Below, piece by piece: positions 3,904-26,122 of a stretch of DNA of 64,000 nt. The stretch lies in NCBI RefSeq assembly GCF_022919095.1, contig NZ_CP095073.1, positions 3,224,001 to 3,288,000 on the forward strand, written 5' to 3'. The notes under the pieces were generated by a model. It ran no database searches. It saw nothing but the letters and a program-made list of their open reading frames with translations, and had not been told where the DNA came from. The DNA comes from Halobacillus salinarum. Lineage in GTDB: Bacteria > Bacillota > Bacilli > Bacillales > Halobacillaceae. Position 1 is the stretch's first letter. Each line of letters begins with the position of its first letter. Made by a program: the position numbers and the translations under genes.

Positions 3904-3980
3904 TTTCGTTCCCCCCATTTGCTAAAGTGCCCCTATTATACACAAATTCCATCCTGTTGGGCAGATGAAAATTAAAAGTG

Positions 3981-4009
3981 TTGACAGGAATTATCCTTTA
4001 TTTTATATT
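3981..4009 (+). promoter_or_regulatory. Sigma-A promoter for NhaC-family gene
   Basis: TTGACA at 3981-3986, 17-base spacer, TATATT at 4004-4009. Transcription should start near 4015, giving a leader of about 225 bases. Confidence 0.8.
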
Positions 4010-4020
4010 ATTTCTATGCA

Positions 4021-4164
4021 CTTCAACACTTAAAAGCGTTTAAGCACGAATGCATTGGAAGCTTTCGCGCAGAAAAAGCTTGTAAAACTAGAGTGCGCAC
4101 GTTGAATACCTGAGTGGAACAACAGAATTCAGGCTTCGTCCCTTATTGGGAGGAAGCTTTTATT
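4021..4164 (+). promoter_or_regulatory. Structured 5' leader with pseudoknot and terminator (candidate riboswitch)
   Basis: Between promoter and antiporter gene the RNA can fold as follows. A closing helix TTCAAC (4022-4027) pairs with GTTGAA (4101-4106). Inside are hairpin CTTAAA/TTTAAG (4029-4044) and hairpin AAGCTTT/AAAGCTT (4059-4081), whose loop GCGCA (4067-4071) can pair with TGCGC (4094-4098). Then come hairpin CCTGA/TCAGG and a terminator-like hairpin at 4133-4157. The 3' part (GAGTGGAAC ... CGTCCC) recalls a T-box end, but no canonical T-box stem I, lysine or SAM aptamer was found. Ligand unknown. Confidence 0.55.
4133..4164 (+). terminator. Leader terminator before NhaC-family gene
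   Basis: GCTTCGTCCC, loop TTATT, GGGAGGAAGC (nine pairs, one G-G mismatch) followed by TTTTATTA. It lies inside the leader, 75 bases before the start codon, as expected of an attenuator. Confidence 0.65.
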
Positions 4165-4238
4165 AGTTAATTAAGGGCTGGCCTAAAGGCTTACACAGCC
4201 ATGAATTTAAATAGATCAGCAACAGGAGGAATAATGCA

Positions 4239-5648
4239 ATGCTTCATTTACAGCCAAAAAAGCTGCCTCATCTTATGGAGGCCTGTTCGATTTTAACTGT
4301 CATCATTTTCATAATCAGCTATTTTATTATTAACATTCAAAGCCCCCCACACGTCCCTATCCTTATTGCTATCCTTTTGATGACTAGCTATGGATTTGTT
4401 AAAAAAATACCATTTCAAACGCTTCAATATGGGATGATTCAAGGAGCACAGACTGGAATGGGCGCTGTATTATTGTTTTTCTTGATCGGCATTCTTATTT
4501 CCAGCTGGATGGCAAGTGGTACGATTCCAGTCCTTATGAATGCTGCCTTTTCCCTTTCGGGTGGACCTTGGTTTCTAGCCGTTACATTTGCCATAACTGC
4601 AATAACAGGCGTAGCCTTAGGAAGCTCGTTTACAACCGCTGCTACAGTTGGAGTCGCTTTTATTGGAGTTGCTCAATCAATGGATATATCTTTAGCCATG
4701 ACTGCAGGTGCTGTGGTGTCCGGCGCATTCTTTGGGGATAAAATGTCTCCTTTATCAGATACAACCAACCTTGCCTCTACCGTCGTAAAAGTTGATTTAT
4801 TTGATCACATCAAAAATATGGCCTGGACTACAATCCCAGCCTTTATCATTACATTCATCGCATTTATTTTATTATCCTCTAACAGATCAGATGGGTCACA
4901 ATTGAACTCATTTCAATCAGTCATTAACGATTCTGGATTAATTCATTGGACATCCTGGATTCCATTAATCGTTCTAATTGTCATGACACTGTTCAAGAGG
5001 CCGGCTTTTATCTCTTTAGCATTAAGCAGCGTGGCTGCGACCATAATTGCCGGTTCCAGAGGAGTTATCTCATGGAATTCCTTATGGGCTACGTGGTTTA
5101 ATGGATTTACAGGCGACACAAAAAGTGATGCCGTTAATGAGCTTCTTACGAGAGGCGGAATAAACGGAATGCTGTTTACTATTTCACTCGTGATTCTTGC
5201 CTTAGCACTTGGCGGCTTGTTTTTCGTGACCGGTGTAATTCCTTCAGTTCTTGAAAAAATTCAAAATACTTTAAGGACCGTCCGAGCAGTGACGATTTCA
5301 GCGGCATTAACCGCAATCGGTATCAATGTGGCCATTGGCGAGCAGTATTTGTCCATTCTTTTAACCGGCGAAGCCTATCAGGATATTTATGAAAAAACGC
5401 ACCTCGCCAAAAAAAATCTTTCAAGAACGTTAGAGGATGCAGGTACAGTCATAAACCCTCTCGTTCCCTGGAGTGTATGCGGCGTTTTCTTATCCGATGT
5501 GCTTGGAGTCTCTGTAATTCATTACCTGCCTTTCGCCATTTTCTGTTACCTCTGCCCCGTCATGACCATTATTTTTGGCTGGACCGGCAAAACACTGACC
5601 CAATCGCGGACAGATAAAGGCGCGAGCACCATAGGTGAGGCGAAATGA
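4239..5648 (+). CDS. NhaC-family Na+/H+ antiporter or amino acid transporter
   Basis: Polytopic membrane protein of 469 residues, NhaC superfamily, with about eleven hydrophobic segments. Family signatures include the GSSFTTAATVGVAFIGVA stretch near residue 128, FFGDKMSPLSDTTNLA near 163 and the later INVAIGEQYLSILLTGE block. Members exchange Na+ for H+, but several are amino acid or organic acid carriers (MleN, YheL, LysW, MetT types), and such members are often behind riboswitches or T-boxes. The structured leader here makes a metabolite carrier as likely as an ion antiporter. ATG follows AGGAGG by nine bases. Confidence 0.85.
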   Translation: MLHLQPKKLPHLMEACSILTVIIFIISYFIINIQSPPHVPILIAILLMTSYGFVKKIPFQTLQYGMIQGAQTGMGAVLLFFLIGILISSWMASGTIPVLMNAAFSLSGGPWFLAVTFAITAITGVALGSSFTTAATVGVAFIGVAQSMDISLAMTAGAVVSGAFFGDKMSPLSDTTNLASTVVKVDLFDHIKNMAWTTIPAFIITFIAFILLSSNRSDGSQLNSFQSVINDSGLIHWTSWIPLIVLIVMTLFKRPAFISLALSSVAATIIAGSRGVISWNSLWATWFNGFTGDTKSDAVNELLTRGGINGMLFTISLVILALALGGLFFVTGVIPSVLEKIQNTLRTVRAVTISAALTAIGINVAIGEQYLSILLTGEAYQDIYEKTHLAKKNLSRTLEDAGTVINPLVPWSVCGVFLSDVLGVSVIHYLPFAIFCYLCPVMTIIFGWTGKTLTQSRTDKGASTIGEAK

Positions 5649-26011: not shown

Positions 26012-26027
26012 TTTCATGGTAAAAAAA

Positions 26028-26122
26028 GAATAGTTGGCAAACTTATTGAAAGATAAGGACGCAAAGCTCCAGGTCTAAAACGGAATCCCGTCACGATGGC
26101 TGAGCTGCACCAGGCACTATTC
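26028..26122 (+). ncRNA. Cyclic di-GMP-I (GEMM-I) riboswitch
   Basis: Hallmarks of the class are present in order: closing stem GAATAGT/ACTATTC, GGCAAAC, hairpin CTTAT-GAAA-ATAAG with GAAA tetraloop, then the core GGACGCAAAGC, GGTCTAAAA, and ATGGCTGAGCTGC as receptor side. A terminator follows at 26130-26158, so it acts at transcription termination. It precedes a decarboxylase-chemoreceptor operon, tying these to c-di-GMP levels. Confidence 0.92.

Follow-up and report, generated by a model that had tools for sequence, protein, structure and literature searches.

In the available text of earlier studies, two systems come closest to the locus described here. Tyrosine T-box leaders have been reported before NhaC transporters (Wels et al. 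2008, PMC2494555; Rfam RF00230), and the TrpR-family regulator HisR (YerC) has been assigned the operator consensus cacTTTA-N6-TAAAgtg, with the his operon, yuiF and hisR as its Bacillales targets (Ashniev et al. 2022, PMC9413887, Table 2). The latter study also places HisR2 paralogs in tyrosine decarboxylase clusters (tdcP-tdcA-tyrT).

The window analysed here is a stretch of 64,000 nucleotides, positions 3224001-3288000 of a complete 4.24-Mb Halobacillus salinarum genome (G000). The features referred to below are as follows.

3981..3986, plus strand: -35 hexamer TTGACA, read from the sequence
4004..4009, plus strand: -10 hexamer TATATT, with a 17-bp spacer, read from the sequence
4019..4052, no strand assigned: operator, tandem 8-bp array C-ACTTCAAC-ACTTAAAA-GCGTTTAA-GCACGAAT-G, from conservation and its period of 8
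4027..4046, no strand assigned: central 20-bp dyad CACTTAAAAGCGTTTAAGCA, of the form cacTTAA-N6-TTAAgtg, for comparison with the HisR consensus in the available text of PMC9413887
4053..4110, plus strand: degenerate stretch, with low confidence possible remnants of the stem I 3' side and stem III; no structure beyond chance
4111..4125, plus strand: relic of the T-box sequence, TGAGTGGAACAACAG (AGGGTGGTACCGCGG in intact relatives), from leader alignment and folding
4131..4159, plus strand: terminator hairpin of the T-box, still present (AGGCTTC-G-TCCC...GGGA-G-GAAGCTT), with a T-rich tract behind it, from folding
4239..5648, plus strand: NhaC-family transporter, ortholog of NhaC genes with a tyrosine T-box (TIGR00931)

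The NhaC-family gene named in the original prediction was confirmed by a TIGR00931 match of 398 bits (cut-off 370), and a leader of about 220 bases was found where 225 had been given. The promoter, described there as perfect, is strong and carries one mismatch in the -10 hexamer; transcription would be expected to start at about 4016-4018. The locus resembles the NhaC tyrosine T-box leaders, as far as the available text of PMC2494555 describes them, in its position, its terminator sequence GCTTCGTCCC, its traces of a T-box sequence and the NhaC gene downstream, and differs from them in that stem I, the specifier and a covariance-model match are missing and the antiterminator is destroyed. Taken together, the data described below indicate that the locus probably carries a dead tyrosine T-box together with an intact operator of a phenylalanine/tyrosine regulon, the operator most likely being bound by a TrpR-family repressor.

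A tandem operator and its regulon in Bacillales

A tandem repeat that had escaped the original prediction lies directly after the promoter. The element, which consists of CTTYA, a few variable bases and AAAAGCGTYYAAGYR, was present in all 36 family orthologs; its core was exact in 35 of them, with the single variant AAAAGCATTTAAG in the remaining one (L096), and it was kept whether the T-box of the ortholog was intact, broken or deleted. When the 650 bases upstream of 80 named NhaC loci were read, 29 loci were found to carry both a T-box and the exact operator, 37 a T-box only, 8 the operator only and 6 neither. Across 87 distinct sequences, identity at lag 8 was 0.52, compared with 0.30 in shuffles (z 32), and 0.46 at lag 16. 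When position pairs wholly outside the search seed were used, the lag-8 identity was 0.42, against 0.28-0.31 at lags 6, 7, 9 and 10. The operators of two Rossellomorea aquimaris strains (L166 and L169) differ by exactly one 8-bp unit. With up to 3 mismatches allowed, the 20-bp form was found in the window's genome at this site and at one other, which has 3 mismatches. In Virgibacillus/Oceanobacillus (L131-L150), NhaC T-boxes lacking the operator often have, by eye, a similar stretch at -10, like TATAGTCATTATTAATC.

Searching 397 Bacillales genomes with the pattern TAAAAGCGTYYAAGYR returned matches in 155, compared with 37 for the reversed pattern as a control, exact patterns of this kind missing operator variants. 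Among the matches listed, 118 were examined (110 to TAAAAGCGTYYAAGYR and 8 from a further pattern search), leaving out apparent within-genus near-duplicates and the nhaC matches of the window's own family. Ninety of these precede five gene families and one nitroreductase gene:

NhaC: 55 of 90
Aromatic amino acid hydroxylase: 12 of 90 (L254: NF010657, 691 bits)
Amino-acid permeases: 11 of 90 (hits to several NCBIfam permease models, none reaching cut-off)
Bifunctional DAHP synthase/chorismate mutase: 8 of 90 (L251: NF009239, 652 bits)
TrpX-like ABC binding proteins: 3 of 90 (PF04392; the NCBIfam TrpX model is below its cut-off)
Nitroreductase-family protein behind a tyrosine T-box: 1 of 90

Families were assigned from one to three members per group by Pfam/NCBIfam, the others being grouped by blastp, and the substrates of the permeases were deduced solely from T-boxes and context. 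Several operator genes also have a tyrosine (TAC) T-box, including the permeases L311, L312 and L318, and a phenylalanine (TTC) T-box lies at the permease L247. As its target genes show, the operator is part of a Bacillales regulon for phenylalanine and tyrosine. It probably marks a regulon not described before: no description of this operator, or of a Phe/Tyr repressor regulon in Bacillales, was met in the available text of the literature searched, a set lacking most subscription journals.

Ten further matches lie outside the 118 (L069, L071, L079, L081, L082, L085, which is the same as L106, L104, L105, L250 and L252). With these the count becomes 90 of 128; none of the ten has a known regulon gene downstream, and L104-L106 are inside other genes. 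For 19 of the 28 examined matches outside the regulon groups, identity at lag 8 stays under 0.40, against a regulon mean of 0.52, and these look like chance occurrences. Among the others, L320 turned out to hold the element in reverse orientation ahead of an NhaC gene; L287 and L298 also belong to these others. Before a membrane-like protein of 164-194 aa, 8-bp arrays were seen at L267, L268 and L269 (L267 without a Pfam match); these arrays, too, are among the others and look genuine, and the protein is a possible member of the regulon. Another array (L365:1602) was seen beside a divergent lipoprotein gene, whose product resembles, by eye, a substrate-binding protein.

A TrpR-family candidate regulator

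In Bacillales the operator sets out a Phe/Tyr regulon, for which one candidate regulator, YerC/HisR, can be named. Compared with the HisR consensus in the available text of PMC9413887, the window dyad has equal geometry and one symmetric base pair different (TTAA-N6-TTAA here, TTTA-N6-TAAA in HisR); the 20-bp length, the half-site spacing and the cac/gtg ends are those of HisR operators, whereas the targets here are Phe/Tyr genes. A TrpR-family regulator tied to tyrosine and to a putative tyrosine transporter has a counterpart in HisR2 at tdcP-tdcA-tyrT, as far as it is described there, but hisR2 lies inside the tyrosine cluster, whereas the genome of the window has one YerC, far from nhaC. 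The 8-bp tandem layout is also that of the his promoters of these genomes, whose his operons carry an array of their own, TTAGCATATTAGC..CTAAAG (L235:541-563 in the window's genome). In E. coli, TrpR dimers bind tandem operators side by side at 8-bp steps; the operator described here is unlike those of E. coli TrpR in sequence, amino acid and organism.

The distribution of YerC was also compared with that of the motif. A single TrpR-family match below E 1e-30 was found in 60 of 61 genomes, and in G003 a further match was seen that is weaker and contains stops. Among the 397 genomes, YerC was absent from 16 and matched two or three times in 11. The pattern was matched in 1 of the 16 YerC-less genomes, at a site with no 8-bp periodicity, against 154 of the 381 genomes with YerC (Fisher p 0.007); since 14 of the 16 belong to one family (f22), this co-absence represents few events. 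YerC is therefore named here as a plausible binder of the operator and as the first candidate regulator, and as no more than a candidate. Quite possibly, though we propose it tentatively, YerC/HisR itself runs a DNA-operated Phe/Tyr regulon in Bacillales, comprising transporters, the aromatic hydroxylase and DAHP synthase/chorismate mutase; one TrpR-family repressor would then read two operator dialects, histidine and aromatic, and its control would be stacked on Tyr/Phe T-boxes and would repeatedly outlive them.

It is also possible that the operator is real and is bound by another regulator, whose family has so far not been connected with aromatic amino acids. The core AAAAGC of the operator is unlike the TTAGC of the his operators, and the exact motif was found in 155 of the 397 genomes, being missing from 227 of the 381 that have YerC. 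On the other hand, the 20-bp dyad geometry and the 8-bp tandem layout match HisR sites, HisR2 paralogs occur in tyrosine decarboxylase clusters (both as described in the available text of PMC9413887), and the motif is nearly absent from YerC-less genomes. The two kinds of operator were also compared by matrix: with the matrix of the aromatic sites, the his operator was the best forward site in 11 of 29 nameable his regions, with 1 of the 11 at p < 0.05, and this matrix detects his operators poorly. When the HisR consensus was applied loosely to the window's genome, with 3 mismatches, 224 matches were obtained on each strand and 295 with the reversed control; because the control outscores it, the loose consensus is useless in this genome.

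The leader and its broken T-box

Among the 36 family orthologs, the window included, the T-box sequence is intact in 23 and not in the other 13. Of the 23 intact leaders, 22 have the specifier GAANTACA (TAC, tyrosine) and one (L094, genome G008) has GAATGACA; the latter leader has GAC in place of TAC and is otherwise intact, so that its specificity may have switched or its decay may just have begun. The specifier region of stem I (loop with S-turn GAA and codon) was readable in all 23 intact relatives, and none was recognisable in the window at 4053-4110. When 20 intact leaders were folded, a nascent antiterminator with a 7-nt bulge formed in each, at -8.4 to -13.0 kcal/mol; the corresponding segment of the window folds differently, at -1.9 kcal/mol, and the antiterminator with its 7-nt UGGN bulge is absent. 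The terminator-like hairpin of the original prediction was clearly recovered (-18.4 kcal/mol, z -4.8; none of 300 shuffles reached this energy), and nothing is left to compete with this intrinsic terminator.

In the aligned core, the T-box sequence of the intact relatives has changed to the relic in the window and is followed by the conserved terminator sequence. Local alignment of the window leader with 53 leader rows gave z up to 6.5 (0 of 200 shuffles), many rows being one genome under two handles and L125 being dropped, as no operator was found in it. Several intact leaders aligned with the window only at chance level (z 0.7-1.7), and leaders keeping little besides the operator gave z -0.6 to 1.7; the alignment to T-box leaders is uncertain across 4053-4110. 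The T-box flavour noticed earlier in the 3' part is real, as shown by leader alignment and folding.

The leader was also searched with Rfam models. At gathering level (score 93), RF00230 called 0 of 20 NhaC loci, though 9 of the 20 have an intact T-box, so the missing call in the window means little. At E up to 0.05, 7 of 14 loci were matched by the model at 67-81 bits, none reaching the gathering score, and no match was obtained at the window's locus (L002) or at L019, L022, L029, L030, L031 and L095. Elsewhere in the window's genome the search at E up to 10 gave 22 T-box matches, of which 20 are strong and 16 exceed the cut-off. The search of 3930-4260 at E up to 10, of the kind suggested with the original prediction, gave no T-box and no known class, its sole match being a plant-virus pseudoknot of 17.9 bits (gathering score 60); Na+ and Li+ riboswitches and the other Rfam classes had no family-model match in the leader. 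Two T-box matches lying in tandem, of 80 and 90 bits and just under the cut-off, were seen in this genome at G000:C1:1678651-1679139.

The remaining structures of the original prediction fared differently from the terminator. A closing helix and two internal hairpins had been proposed, and the leader minus its terminator folds at the level of shuffled sequences: 4018-4110 gave z -0.9 (55 of 300 as low), 4050-4110 z +1.1 and 4018-4130 z -0.65. Both 5-mers of the proposed pseudoknot, GCGCA and TGCGC, are present, but the fold around them is at chance and the pseudoknot itself was not confirmed. The hairpin placed 3' of the terminator (4168-4238) is likewise at chance level (z -0.2). The low energy of the entire leader (z -2.6 to -2.7; equalled by 1 of 200 and by 3 of 300 shuffles) is attributed to the terminator. 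No relative was seen with the same stretch before the terminator, and among what was comparable no helix except the terminator was conserved.

Judged against its relatives, the leader is the wreck of a tyrosine T-box and not a new riboswitch, and of the three origins first suggested for it the degenerate T-box appears to be the right one, 23 of the 36 orthologs having a tyrosine T-box in that place. The whole leader is missing in the lineages L017, L019, L022, L024, L027, L028, L097 and L098. On the NhaC protein tree, in which the window's row is a long branch of uncertain place, loss of the T-box takes about 5 changes (4-5 over bootstrap trees), of which the starred branches force 2 only. The T-box was apparently lost several times within one family while the operator stayed.

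Proposed control of nhaC and other readings of the leader

Two layers of control would once have lain before nhaC, an RNA layer (the tyrosine T-box) and a DNA layer (the operator). In the RNA layer, uncharged tRNA-Tyr would have let transcription pass the terminator. By comparison with the intact leaders, this layer appears dead here through the loss of stem I with its specifier and of the antiterminator, and the terminator would be left as a fixed brake. The DNA layer, the 8-bp tandem operator at about +2 to +36, is still intact; its binder would most likely be a TrpR-family repressor, either YerC/HisR or a similarly binding protein. When the amino acid is plentiful, repressor dimers would sit side by side at 8-bp steps and block RNA polymerase, and loss of the T-box would leave amino-acid uptake under the repressor alone. 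What was suspected to be a riboswitch would then become a natural record of an RNA switch lost and a DNA operator kept.

The kept terminator might instead belong to a shortened, unconventional attenuator, in which pairing of, for example, 4058-4064 with 4129-4135 forms a new anti-terminator in place of the T-box. This seems unlikely. The 7-bp complement is readable in the sequence, but one of that length would be expected by chance in 220 bases, and the structure 5' of the terminator is at shuffle level, with no conservation seen for that stretch. A terminator without a T-box sequence was also kept, as in the window, in L030 (-20.2 kcal/mol) and L095 (-23.2 kcal/mol), while the lineages listed above have lost the whole leader.

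In the window and in nhaC relatives, the element lies at the extreme 5' end of the expected transcript, as a short mRNA 5'-end motif or an RNA-protein site would. Its placement elsewhere makes action in RNA very improbable. At aroA, the array is found 5' of the -35 in all 8 promoters examined, from four families (GTGACN-17-TATAAT), so that it would not be transcribed from that promoter, and in two genomes of one family (G056 and G160) the complete element is found in reverse orientation 7-8 bp downstream of the -10, in the same place as in the normal orientation. From these two arrangements, the element is taken to act as DNA; at aroA its effect could be activation. HutP- and TRAP-like RNA sites, in which AAG is regularly spaced, were rejected on the same two grounds, and a small preQ1-like riboswitch at the 5' end was considered and rejected. 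A CcpA cre site, the consensus of which has TG and CA arms, was also rejected, as the AAAGCGTTT core is present and both arms are missing.

The reading as a new riboswitch for an ion or an amino acid, for which the NhaC-family gene, the terminator and the low folding energy of the whole leader had spoken, is largely refuted by the tyrosine T-box that orthologs have in that place, the chance-level fold outside the terminator and the lack of an Rfam class, and we consider it scarcely credible.

Two further features of the window were observed. A c-di-GMP-I riboswitch (72 bits) at 26026-26112 is the sole gathering-level Rfam match in the window, and an open reading frame with long tandem repeats of 15 residues lies on the minus strand at 1963-2859.
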